A DNA stretch of 64,000 nucleotides from Paenibacillus sp. 37 (lineage in GTDB: Bacteria > Bacillota > Bacilli > Paenibacillales > Paenibacillaceae). The DNA is taken from assembly GCF_008386395.1 (NCBI RefSeq), contig NZ_CP043761.1:2170001-2234000 (forward strand), read 5' to 3'. Position numbers and translations under genes: made by a program. Positions 18,800 to 30,929 of this stretch are shown here, in pieces. Each line of letters starts with the position of its first letter. Within the stretch, counting starts at the first letter, position 1. Under the pieces are notes generated by a model. The model was not told the DNA's origin. It saw only the letters and a program-made list of their open reading frames with translations, and did no database searches.

Positions 18800-18910
18800 G
18801 ACTAGACCTCCCGGGTGAATCTGAATCATGAACAACGGCGTATGTTAACCAATGATTAATGTTGCAGTATACAATGCCATTGCCTAATGATTATTTGGAT
18901 GCTCTCGATC

Positions 18911-18954
18911 ATTGATGTATCAATATTTGATGCGTCAATCATTGATGGCTCAAT
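18911..18954. promoter_or_regulatory. Triple tandem operator, 15-bp period
   Basis: Three 14-bp palindromes ATTGATGTATCAAT (18911), TTTGATGCGTCAAT (18926) and ATTGATGGCTCAAT (18941) each follow ATTGA-N4-TCAAT and are separated by one base. They lie 112 bp upstream of the MarR start and are probably its cooperative binding array. Confidence 0.7.
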
Positions 18955-19090
18955 TAATATATCATGCCGTTTATGATTTTGCAACAGCTTAGAAAATGTT
19001 GCTGATGCTGGCGCTATTTTCCCGCTACGTATACATTACAGTCCGTATAGGGTGTCCAAATGTATAAGTTAATATTGATTATTTATGTTA

Positions 19091-19119
19091 TTGAGAATTG
19101 TTATCAACTAATTTATAAT
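19091..19119 (+). promoter_or_regulatory. Fur-controlled promoter of siderophore locus
   Basis: The -35 TTGAGA (19091-19096), a 17-bp spacer and the -10 TATAAT (19114-19119) form a strong sigma-A promoter. TGAGAATTGTTATCA (19092-19106) matches the Fur 7-1-7 box at 12 of 14 informative bases and covers the -35. Confidence 0.85.
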
Positions 19120-19218
19120 AAAATGAAATGTACATGATGAACGAAATTAACAGGCAGTTCATAACAGCAGCAAAAAGGTTTGTCGATGTAGCATGGCAGG
19201 AGGGAAAGTACAGCGGAG

Positions 19219-21240
19219 ATGAATTTGAATGATCACATCAGGTTGTGGAATCATGTTTTTGTCAAAATACTGGATGTACGCCAAAACGCTTTGCATCCTG
19301 GGGAGAAGCTGAAGAATTATCAACTACCAGCGAGTACCTATCTATATATCACCGACGGAAGTGCACGGATACGAATGGATCAACACAGATACATCGTGGA
19401 GGGATTCCACATCATTCATGGAGGCAAGCAGGCGTATTTAAACATGGAGACGGATTCGGGCGTGGTGTATTATATGATTTTGTACAAAGCCATTCTGGCC
19501 TTGCCCTGTGGGATGGAAATTCAGCATCTGATGGACCATGAACGTCCGTTTCAGGACCAATATGCACTCGTACCAACCCGCCCGCTGCACATGTATCAGT
19601 GTATGGAGGAATTGAAGCAGGAGTGGGAGCAGTCTACTAAGCTTGCAAAGTTACATGCCAAAACTCTATTTCATCAATGGGTATATTCTTTGTTGGCAGA
19701 CGTACACGAACAATCCATTCAACCATGGAAACCGGACACGGTCACACAGGCTATTGATTATATGAATGCTCATCTGCACGAACCCATAGCTCTTGATGTA
19801 ATGGCAGAAGCATTGGAATGCAGCGTGGGGCACTTGTCCAGATTGTTCAAGCAAAAGTTGAACATCAGTCCCATCCAATATCTTGGACAGATCCGAATGG
19901 AGAGGGCTGCACATCTTCTGGTGCATACGGGTGCTACGTTGCAACAGATTGCAGAGCAAGTCGGTTATCCAGATGCACATTCACTAAGTCGCAGTTTCAA
20001 AAAAATCAAAGGACTATCACCAATTCGTTACAAAAAAGGTCTAAGCCAACGGTTACATAACTCAAAAAAGGCATTGGCAATGAACCAAAAGCAAGATTTG
20101 CCCAGTGTAATGCAAGAAAATGCCCTTCATCCGCTACATACCTCTCTATATAATGATATTGATTATCAATATCAAAATAATGTTGGAGGGGAATTACTGA
20201 TGCAAGGAAAATTCAAAATGACAGCAGTAAGCATGATGCTGTGTCTCACATTACTACTCGCGGCCTGTTCCAGTCCTGCACCGTCTGCAAGTGGTACGCA
20301 AACAGAGACTAACGCGGCTACTACACAATCGGGTAACCAGGTAACGGAGGCAGGGAAATCGACTGCTCAACCAGAGACACGGACGGTTTCTACATTGAGA
20401 GGAGATGTGGTGATTCCGGCCAACCCGCAGCGTGTTGCTTCGGATCAATATATGGGGTACCTGCTGAAACTGGGCATTGTACCGGTTGGTGTAAGAACAT
20501 TTATGCTGAACGAAGGATGGATTGAAAAGTCTGGCATTGCTGCTGATGTTATAGCGGGTATTGAGGATTTGGGAGGAGAGTTCCCAATGAATCTGGAGAA
20601 GTTAGTGTCACTTGAGCCGGATCTTATCATCGGTTCCATTGATAAAAATATTGAGGATTACGAAAAAATTGCAACGACTGTCTTTTTACCTTATTGGGAA
20701 GGCGATAAAACGTCTGGCCCACTGGAAAAGCTGCGCCGAATTGCTGGTGTTTTTGGAAAAGAGAAGGAAGCAGAGCAATGGATCACGACATATGAAGAGA
20801 ATATCGAAGAGACTAAGAAGCAGATTGCTGGTGTAATTAAAGAAGGCGAGACCGTATCGATGATACAAATAGGGTACAAAGCGTTGTATGTACTTGGTGC
20901 AGAAGGCGGGAACTATGGTAGTTCCACGATCTATGAGATGCTGAAACTGCCTCCAACTCAGCAAGCACTCGAAATGAAGGATGGATTCGAGACGATCTCC
21001 CTTGAAGTACTGCCTGAGTATATGGGAGACCATATCTTCTTATATGGTTCGGGTAGTGAGGACGCCAAAGAGATCCTGAACAGCGAGGTTTGGAAACGTC
21101 TGCCCGCTGTGCAGAAAGGACAAGTCTACGCCTATGGTTCCTTGGATGGTACAGAGGATGAGTTTGTCATGGAAGATCCCTATTCACTGGAGTTGCAGTT
21201 GGATAGTATAAAGAATTTACTATTGGGAGCTGAAAAATAG
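19219..21240 (+). CDS. AraC-family regulator running in frame into a siderophore-binding lipoprotein
   Basis: One 673-residue frame covers two products. Residues 1-170 are a cupin-like sensor. Residues 177-273 are a complete AraC double HTH (ECSVGHLSRLFKQKLNISP; QIAEQVGYPDAHSLSRSFKK). Residues 274-327 look like translated intergenic DNA. A lipoprotein signal peptide and lipobox LLAAC follow from residue 328, then a TroA/FeuA-like binding domain. No stop separates them, yet a -10 TATAAT, a Fur box and GGAGGGG lie at the junction, so the lipoprotein can be made separately from ATG 20200. If the fusion is made, the signal peptide could serve as a membrane anchor between an inner DNA-binding part and an outer siderophore-binding part. 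The start is uncertain: the ATG at 19219 has GGAGGG 15 bases away, and TTG 19225 is an alternative. Confidence 0.75.
   Translation: MNLNDHIRLWNHVFVKILDVRQNALHPGEKLKNYQLPASTYLYITDGSARIRMDQHRYIVEGFHIIHGGKQAYLNMETDSGVVYYMILYKAILALPCGMEIQHLMDHERPFQDQYALVPTRPLHMYQCMEELKQEWEQSTKLAKLHAKTLFHQWVYSLLADVHEQSIQPWKPDTVTQAIDYMNAHLHEPIALDVMAEALECSVGHLSRLFKQKLNISPIQYLGQIRMERAAHLLVHTGATLQQIAEQVGYPDAHSLSRSFKKIKGLSPIRYKKGLSQRLHNSKKALAMNQKQDLPSVMQENALHPLHTSLYNDIDYQYQNNVGGELLMQGKFKMTAVSMMLCLTLLLAACSSPAPSASGTQTETNAATTQSGNQVTEAGKSTAQPETRTVSTLRGDVVIPANPQRVASDQYMGYLLKLGIVPVGVRTFMLNEGWIEKSGIAADVIAGIEDLGGEFPMNLEKLVSLEPDLIIGSIDKNIEDYEKIATTVFLPYWEGDKTSGPLEKLRRIAGVFGKEKEAEQWITTYEENIEETKKQIAGVIKEGETVSMIQIGYKALYVLGAEGGNYGSSTIYEMLKLPPTQQALEMKDGFETISLEVLPEYMGDHIFLYGSGSEDAKEILNSEVWKRLPAVQKGQVYAYGSLDGTEDEFVMEDPYSLELQLDSIKNLLLGAEK
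20149..20173 (+). promoter_or_regulatory. Internal promoter with Fur box inside the AraC/lipoprotein frame
   Basis: A perfect -10 TATAAT (20149-20154) is followed directly by GATATTGATTATCAATATC (20155-20173), a perfect 19-bp palindrome matching the Fur consensus at 16 of 19 positions. The -35 is weak (TTCATC, 17 bp upstream). GGAGGGG at 20185 then leads to ATG 20200. Confidence 0.8.
20200..21240 (+). CDS. Siderophore-binding lipoprotein (internal start within the fused frame)
   Basis: This 346-residue product is read from an ATG 8 bases after GGAGGGG. It begins with a textbook lipoprotein signal (MQGKFKMTAVSMMLCLTLLL, then AACSS), a Ser/Thr/Gly-rich linker, and a class III substrate-binding fold: RGDVVIPANPQRVASD, then LVSLEPDLIIGS, and a long connecting helix. 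Such proteins capture ferric siderophores on the outer face of the membrane for an FecCD-type ABC importer. The importer is not in the window. The Fur box directly upstream implies iron repression. It is listed separately because its own promoter and ribosome site make separate synthesis likely. Confidence 0.85.
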   Translation: MQGKFKMTAVSMMLCLTLLLAACSSPAPSASGTQTETNAATTQSGNQVTEAGKSTAQPETRTVSTLRGDVVIPANPQRVASDQYMGYLLKLGIVPVGVRTFMLNEGWIEKSGIAADVIAGIEDLGGEFPMNLEKLVSLEPDLIIGSIDKNIEDYEKIATTVFLPYWEGDKTSGPLEKLRRIAGVFGKEKEAEQWITTYEENIEETKKQIAGVIKEGETVSMIQIGYKALYVLGAEGGNYGSSTIYEMLKLPPTQQALEMKDGFETISLEVLPEYMGDHIFLYGSGSEDAKEILNSEVWKRLPAVQKGQVYAYGSLDGTEDEFVMEDPYSLELQLDSIKNLLLGAEK

Positions 21241-21291
21241 AGTGTAATCATTTCACATAGAATCGGATCAGAACAGGGAGGGGACGTGAGC

Positions 21292-22893
21292 ATGGAGGAA
21301 AATGATTGGATCAAACAACTGGAGCAACTACATTTCTCTGCTGTCCACGTCTGCCATTACTCTAGCAATCCGCGGGCTGTTCAGCGTCGGATCTGGAAAA
21401 GGTTCGCCATTTGCAGGGTCATCGCGGGCAAGGGATCTTTGTCTATGGATAACATTGTACATACGGTATCTCAAGACGAGTGGTTTTTGTTGAAGCCAGG
21501 AATGCATGTGGAGTTTCAGACGGATATGGAAGCACCTGTCCGATATCAGATCATTTTATTTTCCTGTGTTACACTTACCCGGCGTCGGAATGCTTGGCAT
21601 ACCGAGGCATTTGATCTCCCTGTGACGGGCAAGCTTAATGTTCCTTCCAATACACGTGATATTCAGGAGATGATGGATACCCTGGTGAGTGGAAAACACT
21701 CGTTTACGAGTCTGGAAAAGACGCGCAGGAAACATCTTTTGCATCAGTTGTTGATTCAGTTAATGATGCACGTGAATGAAGCAACACCCCCTGTAGCGGG
21801 GATGGATTTGGCACTTGATTATATGACGCATCAGTATATGGAAGACATTCGAATTGATCAGATGGCCCGCATGGCAGGGCTTAGTGTGAATCATTTTATA
21901 AGAACATTCAAACGACAAATAAATATGACCCCGATTGAATATATACTGAAGCTACGTATGACAAAGGCCAAACAGTTGTTATTTTCTTCAGATAAAATCA
22001 AGGAAATTGCGGAGCAAGTGGGTTATAAGGACGAGCACTATTTCAGCAGAGTCTTTAAGAAAAACGAAGGAATCGCCCCAACGTTGTATATGAAAAATAA
22101 AGTGAATCGCATTGCCACCTTATATTACGGGTTGGACGATTATGTGATAACGCTCGGTTTGAGGCCAGTATCCGCTTTATCCTATGGTCAGAGGGTGGCT
22201 CGTCATGTTGCCATACCTGCGCTTCAAGCACACAGTCATCAGGGGGTTATCCTGGATAGCTTCAATCAGAACTATGATGATTTGAGGCGAGTCCAACCGG
22301 ACCTGATCATTACGAGTGATCGTTTGGAACCAAATGACTCACTGCATCGTATCGCGCCTACCACCATGCTGGAGCACACCAACCATTTTGGGGAAAGACT
22401 TCTGTATATGGCGGACATTATGGGCCGCACCGAACAGGCTGTACAGTGGATAGAACAACATGCTGAACTGAGTCGGGTTCTTCGAGGGCGTATTCAATCG
22501 AGGTGGGGGAAACAGAGTGCCATGTTCATCCGAGTGACTTCTCATTTCTACCGAATGTATGGATTGAACAACCAGACAGGTGCCCTATTGTATGATGATC
22601 TGGGATTTTATTTGCCTCGTGATTTTCCGGAACAACAGTGGGCTGTAGAGAGTAAAGTTAGCGATTTGCAGTTATACGAAGTGGATCATGTGTTTGTAAT
22701 GGTCGATCCCACAGAAGAGGCACGTGCTCAACTGAGGCAATTACAGCAATCCAGTGCATGGTTGGCATTAAAGGCTGTTCAAGAAGGCCATGTATATAAT
22801 GCAGGAGATATTTTTTTCAAAACGCTGGGTCCCACCGGACGCATGTGGGCCATGCGATATGTGGCAGAGCAACTTGGGGTTACCTTACGGTGA
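21292..22893 (+). CDS. AraC-type regulator with cytoplasmic siderophore-binding domain (Btr-like)
   Basis: A 533-residue protein with a cupin-like N-terminal part, an AraC HTH pair at about 160-265 (IRIDQMARMAGLSVNHFIRT; IKEIAEQVGYKDEHYFSRVF), and a C-terminal TroA-like substrate-binding fold (about 270-533). No signal peptide is present, so the binding fold is inside the cell. This is the architecture of B. subtilis Btr (YbbB), which binds bacillibactin and activates the feu uptake operon. It probably senses imported siderophore and activates the neighbouring lipoprotein genes. The ATG at 21292 is chosen (AGGGAGGGG 8 bases upstream) over the closer GTG 21286. Confidence 0.9.
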   Translation: MEENDWIKQLEQLHFSAVHVCHYSSNPRAVQRRIWKRFAICRVIAGKGSLSMDNIVHTVSQDEWFLLKPGMHVEFQTDMEAPVRYQIILFSCVTLTRRRNAWHTEAFDLPVTGKLNVPSNTRDIQEMMDTLVSGKHSFTSLEKTRRKHLLHQLLIQLMMHVNEATPPVAGMDLALDYMTHQYMEDIRIDQMARMAGLSVNHFIRTFKRQINMTPIEYILKLRMTKAKQLLFSSDKIKEIAEQVGYKDEHYFSRVFKKNEGIAPTLYMKNKVNRIATLYYGLDDYVITLGLRPVSALSYGQRVARHVAIPALQAHSHQGVILDSFNQNYDDLRRVQPDLIITSDRLEPNDSLHRIAPTTMLEHTNHFGERLLYMADIMGRTEQAVQWIEQHAELSRVLRGRIQSRWGKQSAMFIRVTSHFYRMYGLNNQTGALLYDDLGFYLPRDFPEQQWAVESKVSDLQLYEVDHVFVMVDPTEEARAQLRQLQQSSAWLALKAVQEGHVYNAGDIFFKTLGPTGRMWAMRYVAEQLGVTLR

Positions 22894-22956
22894 TATTGTG
22901 CAAGAGAAGAGAGTGGAATAATCCATGGTAAGCCTGTATGCTTTTCCCTACTATAG

Positions 22957-22971
22957 TGATAATGATTATTA
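22957..22971. promoter_or_regulatory. Fur box
   Basis: TGATAATGATTATTA matches the 7-1-7 Fur consensus TGATAATNATTATCA at 13 of 14 positions and lies 30 bp before the lipoprotein start at 23002. Confidence 0.85.
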
Positions 22972-23001
22972 TTATTAAATAGCAGAGGGGATTTACTACA
23001 A

Positions 23002-23982
23002 ATGGTAAGACAGAGAGCAGCAACGATGATACTGTTGGCCCTGCTTGTGCTCGTTCTGACGGCATGTAGCAAGGCATCAGAAGTAACGGAAGCAACGCCT
23101 CCGCAACAGGATACACCTGTGGAAGAGAGTGGTACGCAAACGATTGAGCATCTTAAAGGAACAGCGGTTGTACCGCAAAAGATAGAGCGTATGGTGGTAT
23201 TATCTGCTGCTTACATCGATCACATGTTGACGATTGGTGAGAAACCAGCAGGCGTTAATGTAGAAGTTCGTTACGGAGGAGATTATTTGCCTTACCTTGC
23301 AGATCAGCTTGCCGGCGTTCCAACGGTAGGGTCGGCAGATAGTCCTAACCTGGAGGCTATCCTTCAGATTGATCCGGATGTCATCGTTATTGAGAGTCGA
23401 ACTGCGGAGAGTATGTATGATCAGTTGGAGAAAATCGCTCCGACGATTGTACTTGGTACTGAATGGCTGGATTATGCTGATGATACAACCTATTGGACAC
23501 AGGATCTGTTGACCATTGCCGGGATGTACAACAAAGTGGATCTGGCAAAAGAAAAGATAGCCGAGGTAGAGCAGCAAGCGAAGCAATTAAAAGCGAAGAT
23601 CGAACAACTGGATCAAAAAAAGTTGGCTTATCTGCGTGTAAGAGAGAAGACCTTGCAAATATACGCGGCAAAAGGGCATCCAACCAACACACTTTTATAT
23701 GATGATCTTGGATTTGTGCCAACGAGTGTGACACCTGCCGAACAACGTGAGGATTTATCCATGGAGAAAATAGCAGATGTGGATGCTGATTTTGTAATTC
23801 TGGAGATTGACCCGAATGCCGATGAGTATTTAAACAACATCAATGCAAGCTCACTCTGGAAGGGAGTACCGGCTGTTGGTGCAGATCAGGTCTATACGAC
23901 AGACTCGTTCTGGTTGTTTAAGGGCTGGGGAGCGATTGGGCGAAGCGAGATTATCAACGAAGTTGAAGAGATGATTCAATAG
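23002..23982 (+). CDS. Iron-siderophore ABC transporter substrate-binding lipoprotein
   Basis: A 326-residue class III binding protein. The N-terminus has a basic start, a hydrophobic stretch MILLALLVLVL and lipobox LTAC at about residue 21, then a Glu/Thr-rich linker. The binding fold includes GTAVVPQKIERMVVLS, ILQIDPDVIVIESR and a long helix rich in Lys/Gln. It should deliver ferric siderophore to an FecCD permease, which is not encoded here. It follows the Btr-like regulator, is preceded by its own Fur box, and its stop codon abuts the start of the FhuF-like gene. Confidence 0.9.
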   Translation: MVRQRAATMILLALLVLVLTACSKASEVTEATPPQQDTPVEESGTQTIEHLKGTAVVPQKIERMVVLSAAYIDHMLTIGEKPAGVNVEVRYGGDYLPYLADQLAGVPTVGSADSPNLEAILQIDPDVIVIESRTAESMYDQLEKIAPTIVLGTEWLDYADDTTYWTQDLLTIAGMYNKVDLAKEKIAEVEQQAKQLKAKIEQLDQKKLAYLRVREKTLQIYAAKGHPTNTLLYDDLGFVPTSVTPAEQREDLSMEKIADVDADFVILEIDPNADEYLNNINASSLWKGVPAVGADQVYTTDSFWLFKGWGAIGRSEIINEVEEMIQ

Positions 23983-24795
23983 ATGAGACGTTATCCAAGA
24001 CATGACTATTTAGAGATGTCGGAAGCGTTACAGCAATTTTTTGTGACGACGATCCGAGTGGACTGCGATGATTCCAAGTATCCTTTCCGTGTGAAGGATC
24101 TGCTGAATGAAGAGAAACGAAACTTGATATTGCGTGAACAGGCTATGCAGCAAGGGCTTCAACTGGGAGGCAAAGGAAGTGTGGCCGTTGGTACACTTTT
24201 TGCTAAGCGTTACTCCGTATTTGTTATGTCCGTAATCTCAGCATTCAGTCTATACGATACGATACTTAGCATTGCAGACGATGATGTGCGGTTTGAATTG
24301 AATGGAGCAGGTGGCATGCGATATGAGACTCGGTTGAAGAGCTCCTTTCTGGAGGGTGGAGATCCTGTTCAGCGCAGATCAGAGAGCGGCTTGCTCAAGA
24401 AGAGAATGCTGTTACATCTGGAACCCGTTCTGCGAGCAGTAGCCGTTAGTACAGGAGCGAGCGATAAGGTAATGTGGTCTCTAGTTGCCCATAATGTGCA
24501 ACAATTGTATGAACGAATGATCAATGATCAGAGCATATGGAAGACGGATCAGCGGCTTGAACAGATCAAGGAAGATCAAAGCCTATGGTTTGACGAACAA
24601 AATGAAAATGCATTTACATTTGCCATGAAGCTGAATCGCTTTGATCACCCCGAGTGGCAAGGACCGCCGTTCTTGATACGTCGATATTGTTGTTTGGCTT
24701 ATCAAGTTGGAGACGGCAGTCATACACATGGTTATTGCAACAGTTGTCCGAAGCTGGATTCGGATTCCCGATTGAGCAAACTTCTCCAGCAGTGA
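23983..24795 (+). CDS. FhuF-like [2Fe-2S] ferric siderophore reductase
   Basis: A 270-residue protein. It ends with RRYCCLAYQVG, then YCNSC: a Cys-Cys-X14-Cys-X2-Cys cluster like the one that binds [2Fe-2S] in E. coli FhuF, where the gap is X10. Most of the rest has the helical IucA/FhuF-type layout with little motif content. These enzymes reduce ferric siderophore in the cytoplasm to release iron. The ATG starts right after the TAG of the lipoprotein gene, so translation is coupled and the two share the Fur-controlled promoter. The function fits the locus well. Confidence 0.82.
   Translation: MRRYPRHDYLEMSEALQQFFVTTIRVDCDDSKYPFRVKDLLNEEKRNLILREQAMQQGLQLGGKGSVAVGTLFAKRYSVFVMSVISAFSLYDTILSIADDDVRFELNGAGGMRYETRLKSSFLEGGDPVQRRSESGLLKKRMLLHLEPVLRAVAVSTGASDKVMWSLVAHNVQQLYERMINDQSIWKTDQRLEQIKEDQSLWFDEQNENAFTFAMKLNRFDHPEWQGPPFLIRRYCCLAYQVGDGSHTHGYCNSCPKLDSDSRLSKLLQQ

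Positions 24796-26699: not shown

Positions 26700-30929
<4,230 letters not shown>

Follow-up and report, generated by a model that had tools for sequence, protein, structure and literature searches.

A 64,000-nt window of the Paenibacillus sp. 37 genome (the whole stretch of DNA analysed here, numbered from its first letter) carries at 19219-21240 a single stop-free frame of 673 codons, which runs from an AraC regulator into a siderophore-binding lipoprotein with its own signal peptide. On balance, we think that this is one gene for two proteins, namely a membrane-tethered AraC-receptor sensor read from the whole frame and a free receptor made from an inner, Fur-controlled promoter. This reading comes from comparing sequences, in which the open frame, the Fur-type site, the predicted start site and the predicted signal peptide are each conserved among relatives.

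Layout of the fused frame

The preliminary description of this window had reported an uninterrupted AraC-to-lipoprotein frame, a TATAAT at 20149, a 19-bp palindromic Fur box at 20155, GGAGGGG at 20185 and an ATG at 20200. All of these lie at those positions, and the frame from 19219 to 21240 is free of stops over 673 codons. The upstream Fur promoter that it had claimed was also recovered, as a Fur-like site (12/14) overlapping a promoter (11/12) ahead of the fused open reading frame (ORF). Fur scores are the matches, out of 14, of 15-mers to a Fur consensus. The features of the fused ORF, all on the forward strand, are as follows.

19091 to 19119, +: upstream promoter P1, TTGAGA-17 nt-TATAAT (11/12 in the promoter scan), overlapped by the Fur-box-like TGAGAATTGTTATCA at 19092-19106 (Fur score 12/14)
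19219 to 21240, +: fused ORF, 673 aa, AraC regulator, linker, lipoprotein signal peptide and siderophore-binding domain (sequence, Pfam)
19219 to 20037, +: AraC half, residues 1-273, with a beta-rich N-domain and a helix-turn-helix (HTH) at about 183-273 (Pfam HTH_18/HTH_AraC; confident in AlphaFold2)
20038 to 20199, +: linker, residues 274-327, coding and also holding the putative inner promoter region, Fur box and ribosome site; modelled with low confidence from roughly residue 280 onwards
20149 to 20154, +: inner -10-like TATAAT (P2), with a weak -35 (sequence)
20154 to 20174, +: inner Fur box, overlapping registers 20154-20168 (13/14) and 20160-20174 (12/14) by consensus score
20185 to 20191, +: ribosome-binding site GGAGGGG for the inner start (sequence; family comparison)
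20200 to 20268, +: inner ATG and lipoprotein signal peptide with lipobox LLLAAC, the Cys350 codon at 20266-20268 (lipobox comparison)
20377 to 21237, +: siderophore-binding domain, residues 387-673, FhuD/YxeB-like (Pfam; PDB by sequence and fold)

Positions 20155-20173 form a perfect 19-bp palindrome, GATATTGATTATCAATATC. Across the whole 64 kb window, 15-mers with a Fur score of at least 12 occur only at 19092, upstream of the fused ORF, at 20154/20160, in the junction, and at 22957/22963, before the next lipoprotein.

Pfam places the AraC HTH at about residues 183-273 and Peripla_BP_2 at residues 457-641. The closest PDB entry to the binding half is 3hxp by sequence (E 1.8e-31) and FhuD2 4b8y by fold (E 4e-21), and the closest solved structures are hydroxamate-siderophore receptors. 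An AlphaFold2 model from 67 sequences had a mean predicted local distance difference test score (pLDDT) of 83.6 and a predicted template modelling score (pTM) of 0.46. Both halves are confident and the linker is low-confidence, with pLDDT <50 at residues 289-294 and 301-334 and a further low-confidence stretch at 351-382. A helix at 331-349, itself of low confidence, stands just before the lipobox Cys350. The predicted order is a DNA-binding half, one hydrophobic segment and a sensor half, the segment being a lipoprotein signal that is cleavable in principle. The start of the ORF is ambiguous (19199-19227), as ATG 19219 has GGAGGG about 14 nt away and TTG 19225 has a better spaced GGAG.

Conservation of the junction and of the open frame

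For the junction, 113 different matching frames, measured from stop to stop and no shorter than 500 residues, were collected, and the 107 matching both ends of the window protein were kept. Six were dropped, namely Btr-like neighbours (L009, L010 and L016) and broken fused copies (L020, L135 and L139). Frames broken earlier never entered the set, and the count of 107 describes unbroken copies. The lipobox is present in all 107 of these unbroken fused ORFs, and Cys350 is invariant across 67 aligned proteins. The best Fur-like 15-mer of the linker scored 10-14 of 14 in 107 of 107 (14 in 28, 13 in 52, 12 in 16, 11 in 10 and 10 in 1), always in a single codon phase and 34-51 codons ahead of the Cys. 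Further upstream, between -350 and +60 of the frame start, a Fur score of at least 12 was found in 85 of the 107, the maximum in shuffled DNA being 11.

The linker site was also examined codon by codon. In the 107 set, T is the last base of 330 of the 339 D, N, H and Y codons in the box, versus 7619 of 10982 elsewhere in the same genes; among 48 non-redundant relatives the counts are 157/161 and 3417/4944. Of the five third codon positions in the box, four are T almost throughout (46, 45, 44 and 47 of 48) and the other (position 3) is T in 29. The base that the palindrome leaves free is a first codon position and the least conserved of the box (C in 27, G in 16, T in 3 and A in 2 of 48). After synonymous-codon shuffling of the whole linker, Fur scores of at least 13 were reached in about 29%, versus 79% observed. 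The conservation of the junction follows the DNA palindrome rather than the codons, and the putative inner operator is conserved as DNA. That the linker peptide is conserved for its amino acids alone was ruled out, since the third positions and the free central base track the palindrome.

The predicted inner start is ATG in 94, GTG in 9 and TTG in 4 of the 107. It is preceded by a ribosome-site match of at least 5/7 in 90 of the 107, versus 291 of 1552 other in-frame ATGs, an excess somewhat inflated because the start was selected as the best among a few candidates 18-28 codons ahead of the Cys.

The open frame itself was traced across genomes. A first protein search was biased, its length limits shutting out separate halves, and each half was therefore searched alone in 295 Paenibacillaceae genomes sampled evenly from a larger group. 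Scores were given to no more than the top 7 candidates per genome for the lipoprotein half and the top 8 for the AraC half. The lipoprotein half gave 46 matches in 45 genomes (E 1e-60 or better); 45 fall in open frames 638-717 residues long and the other in a frame of 324 residues. This lone exception (L140) is a stand-alone lipoprotein, and the 3 kb of DNA retrieved shows no AraC gene immediately upstream of it. The AraC half matched in 128 genomes (E 1e-40 or better), and 148 of the best 150 places lie in frames of 647-764 residues; the remaining two of these 150 are an AraC copy breaking near the linker (381) and a fused copy truncated in the binding half (549). A TAG falls within the matched part in 2 of the 45 fused lipoprotein-half matches, and one of the 148 fused AraC-half frames listed (G201, L135) has a TAA within the AraC half. 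These frame lengths read through stops inside the match and therefore show an open linker, not the intactness of each copy. L138 and L139 are broken by frame shifts. Other broken copies were seen in G026, with two frame breaks, and in G058, with a stop in the binding half. G025 (L156, L028) has a deletion in the AraC half and an intact lipoprotein frame, so that the receptor half can outlive the regulator.

Equivalent open frames were found in relatives from 95 down to about 30% identity and in several genera, the named ones including Paenibacillus, Cohnella, Lysinibacillus, Brevibacillus and Psychrobacillus. The genome of the strain itself holds five full-length fused genes, the other four being 32-37% identical to the window protein; five of its 31 Peripla_BP_2 matches lie within fused frames of 655-682 residues. 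For the 48 non-redundant relatives, the chance of an open linker at the given length and composition had a median of 0.035 each, although this set was chosen for open frames and the unbiased evidence is the genome searches with each half. The other two frames of the linker contain stops in 36/48 and 48/48. An open linker by chance was ruled out by the two half-searches together with this median. A sequencing error or a recent stop loss was ruled out by the open frame in relatives, found in both half-searches and in several genera.

The preliminary description had offered two readings, either a lost stop codon with two products or a functional fusion. It had proposed to compare the junction in relatives, a stop in most of them speaking for a recent loss or a sequencing error and against the fusion. 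The comparison found the frame conserved open, and the recent loss or error was not borne out, given that the halves are fused in 45 of 46 matches to the lipoprotein half and in 148 of the best 150 places for the AraC half. The fusion is thus conserved, and so are the predicted signals for a separate inner output. As conservation extends from the open frame to the Fur site, ribosome site and start codon within it, the two readings are not alternatives, and the evidence speaks for both outputs.

Btr-like frames served as a control for the linker site. Among 80 named loci, which partly overlap the 107 set, 79 frames in 70 loci join both halves and ten loci have none. In all 15 frames without a lipobox (Btr-like), the linker Fur score, computed by the same method, never exceeded 10. 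Of the 64 frames with a lipobox, 55 carry a Fur-like site of at least 11 in the usual phase. Two lipobox frames are odd cases, L169, a short frame with its site in another phase, and L193, whose linker is masked. The Fur-like site is also present in a Tissierellia bin (L216).

In nine loci the functions are split between an AraC-type protein without a signal peptide and a separate lipoprotein beside it. Both binding domains were found in 8 of the 9, the pairs being 25-53% identical. At six loci (L210, L211, L212, L214, L218 and L233) the lipoprotein and the AraC-type protein with its binding domain adjoin, with binding domains 36-53% identical. Trees of both halves were made by a quick method, have long branches and leave out the unclassed rows L169 and L228. 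In the AraC tree, a branch with support 100 separates all 67 fused rows from 11 Btr-like rows, after L161, L194 and L215 had been moved from the Btr to the fused class once the tree was seen, because they have a lipobox. With the first labels, the only ones to which the test was applied, a single clade of the fused AraC halves was rejected. Of 28 Btr-like rows, 17 are absent from this tree because their match to the AraC profile, built from fused proteins, was too short. In the tree of binding domains, fused rows are interspersed with lone lipoproteins and Btr-like domains (approximately unbiased test, p-AU 3e-46), with at least 3 forced changes after removing 22 of 128 rows, mostly long-branched. 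The window clade (20 fused rows) adjoins four two-gene lipoproteins and then their four AraC-type partners. The discord between the trees could have arisen if binding domains were exchanged or if the AraC half was lost repeatedly.

Proposed mechanism and rival explanations

The evidence favours two conserved outputs, the joined protein and the receptor alone. In the mechanism we propose, the whole frame would be read from the upstream Fur-controlled promoter. The long form would consist of the AraC half, a disordered tether, a single membrane segment (the signal peptide, with the N-terminus inside) and the siderophore-binding domain outside, and would act as a membrane-tethered sensor reporting the capture of a ferric siderophore to the DNA-binding half. 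A second Fur-controlled promoter in the linker, with ribosome site and start in frame, would yield the C-terminal half alone, an ordinary siderophore-binding lipoprotein that would feed a FecCD-type permease. Iron limitation would take Fur off both sites, and the AraC half may act as an activator at the weak inner promoter. We infer the production of both proteins, Fur binding at both sites and AraC action at P2, and likewise the insertion of the long form by its signal segment, sensing outside the cell and the signalling step. A tethered one-piece sensor fits the predicted anatomy, that is, the low-confidence helix 331-349, Cys350 and the low-confidence flanks. The two-gene relatives offer a supporting comparison, as they pair a signal-less AraC-type protein with a lipoprotein of related binding domain.

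Several points weigh against this mechanism. The Fur score alone is partly circular, because the best match was picked, and in 7 of the 107 another place in the frame scores equally or higher on the Fur consensus. Taken one sequence at a time, the synonymous-shuffle test is weak (below 0.05 in 14 of 107, below 0.01 in none, median 0.157). In a generic sigma-70 scan, TATAAT 20149 is not part of any promoter listed, its -35 hexamer being weak, and promoter-like sites in 18900-23200 are no more frequent than by chance (9 versus 9.7 expected). Seven lipobox frames of the control score 9 or lower for Fur (L202, L203 twice, L209, L215, L217 and L219), five from Clostridia (Scatolibacter and two Clostridium records) and two from Paenibacillus. 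All seven retain the fused frame, the lipobox and the inner Met, and the five clostridial ones also TATAAT; the fused layout is therefore not tied to Fur. No FecCD gene adjoins the window gene, and 49 of 57 named fused loci, a few with short flanks, show none directly downstream. Finally, with its lipobox the long form may be a substrate for signal peptidase II.

In the clostridial linkers (L202, L203, L217 and L219), CAAGTTAG follows TATAAT in 3 of 5, with variants in 2 of 5, in place of the Fur box.

FecCD genes lie directly downstream of the fused frame at 8 of the 57 named loci (L158-L219), seven found by script over 62 loci, four of which are short, and L215 by reading. At those loci the receptor half is therefore likely an uptake receptor. 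The same genome has a fused paralogue at 3020860 with two FecCD permease genes directly after it (L238:6804-10924, about 3020803-3024923), an apparent sensor-receptor-permease unit in which the binding half is again a likely uptake receptor.

That last point against the proposed mechanism, cutting by signal peptidase, leads to its strongest rival, which we consider unlikely though deserving of attention: the long form would be a self-separating precursor that, once inserted and lipidated at Cys350, is cleaved by lipoprotein signal peptidase. This would leave the AraC half anchored by the signal peptide, possibly to be freed later by an intramembrane protease, together with the same lipoprotein, and the fusion would serve stoichiometry or couple AraC release to export. 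The lipobox intact in 107 of 107 and the invariant Cys350 agree with it, as does the processing of signal-peptide remnants of other lipoproteins by intramembrane proteases. The short form needs the lipobox in any case, however, and conservation of the motif is therefore no evidence that the long form is cleaved. Somewhat less plausible again is a Btr-like sensor in the cytoplasm, where the long form would escape export and sense imported ferric siderophore and the short form would be the exported receptor. The two-gene relatives have exactly such a pair with related binding domains, and they supply the nearest tree neighbours of the window clade, lipoproteins first and then AraC-type partners. 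Against this stand the AlphaFold2 helix at the signal segment, low in confidence, and the expectation that an internal signal sequence with a positive N-side and a hydrophobic core inserts into the membrane.

It is improbable that the joined product, though made, is without a role of its own and that function rests with the AraC half and the short lipoprotein alone. G025, whose lipoprotein frame survives a deletion in the AraC half, is in line with such a view, but an open linker in deeply diverged paralogues, at a median chance of 0.035 per linker, would be unexpected without selection on the joined product. A sequencing error or recent loss of a stop codon has, in our judgement, next to no probability: the open frame in relatives from 95 to about 30% identity and in several genera refutes it, and recurrence of the layout in many related species makes an error unlikely.

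Gene neighbourhood and comparison with known systems

Downstream of the fused ORF lie the following features, all on the forward strand.

21286 to 22893, +: 535-aa AraC and Peripla_BP_2 protein without signal peptide, Btr-like (Pfam)
22957 to 22971, +: Fur-box-like site upstream of the next lipoprotein (score 13)
23002 to 23982, +: stand-alone siderophore-binding lipoprotein, 326 aa (Pfam)
23983 to 24795, +: 270-aa protein with a C-terminal Cys-rich motif and no Pfam match

The 15-mer scan of the window found no Fur site of at least 12 between the fused ORF and the 535-aa Btr-like neighbour. The C-terminal Cys-rich motif of the 270-aa protein resembles that of FhuF reductases. Farther along, 26754-30929 encodes a 1391-residue collagen-like Gly-X-Thr repeat protein, and a very long open frame opposite this gene (26969-30514) is probably a by-product of the repeat.

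It is quite possible, if short of probable, that the fused gene represents a new class of one-gene siderophore system, in which one binding-domain sequence is used twice, as a tethered AraC sensor and as an uptake receptor from an inner iron-regulated promoter. If so, the specificities of sensor and receptor could not drift apart, because both would use one binding-domain sequence. With both forms made, one stretch of DNA would supply a siderophore sensor and the matching receptor, which would explain matched specificity in a genome with many systems. The AraC regulator would then have a sensor that may face the outside of the cell, and the gene would clearly exemplify how an operator, a ribosome site and a start codon can be maintained in frame within a conserved protein. 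Action of lipoprotein signal peptidase on the long form could add a release step, which to our knowledge is not known for AraC regulators.

In the databases most of the fused proteins carry the name of AraC regulators and some that of substrate-binding proteins; a second product may therefore be missed, which would bear on receptor counts in Paenibacillus. In the parts of a survey of siderophore clusters covered here (PMC13293324), 6,023 Peripla_BP_2 genes are counted in five genera, 229 with a second domain, which is HTH_18 in 98.7% of these, and Paenibacillus has the highest receptor-to-synthesis ratio among the genera compared. Those parts contain no examination of the two-domain Peripla_BP_2 genes. 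Titles and abstracts in the literature, with subscription journals thinly covered, gave no description of the AraC-lipoprotein layout.

The closest known relative in design is Btr (YbbB) of Bacillus subtilis, which, in the sections of the reports covered, joins an AraC DNA-binding half to a siderophore-binding-protein half (PMC9609785, PMC6529636) and activates the Fur-repressed feuABC-ybbA (PMC6529636). Btr-type proteins share with the window protein an AraC HTH half and a C-terminal Peripla_BP_2 half in one protein, according to Pfam. The sensor domain of Btr is cytoplasmic, with no export signal between the halves. Btr-like frames have neither a lipobox nor a linker Fur site above 10/14 (15/15), whereas the window family has a signal peptide and lipobox between the halves (107/107), its binding domain also having its own putative promoter region, start and export signal. 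With the FhuD, YxeB and FeuA lipoproteins the inner unit shares a lipobox signal peptide after a start and ribosome site, a Ser/Thr-rich tether, the binding fold and a Fur-like site upstream. Unlike them, the window frame continues in frame from an upstream regulator, and the predicted promoter region lies within coding DNA.

ToxR and CadC have a DNA-binding half inside, one membrane segment and a sensor half outside, an order that the window protein may follow, its putative membrane segment being a lipoprotein signal that may be cut. Unlike these winged-helix proteins, the window protein has an AraC part, a siderophore-binding sensor, a lipobox in the putative membrane segment and a putative inner promoter region that would also yield the sensor by itself. 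In-frame nested genes use an internal start to yield a shorter C-terminal isoform without a change of frame, and the window family shares with them a conserved inner start with a ribosome site. Beyond other nested genes of this kind, its inner unit has a putative regulatory operator of its own, and the two products would differ in export.

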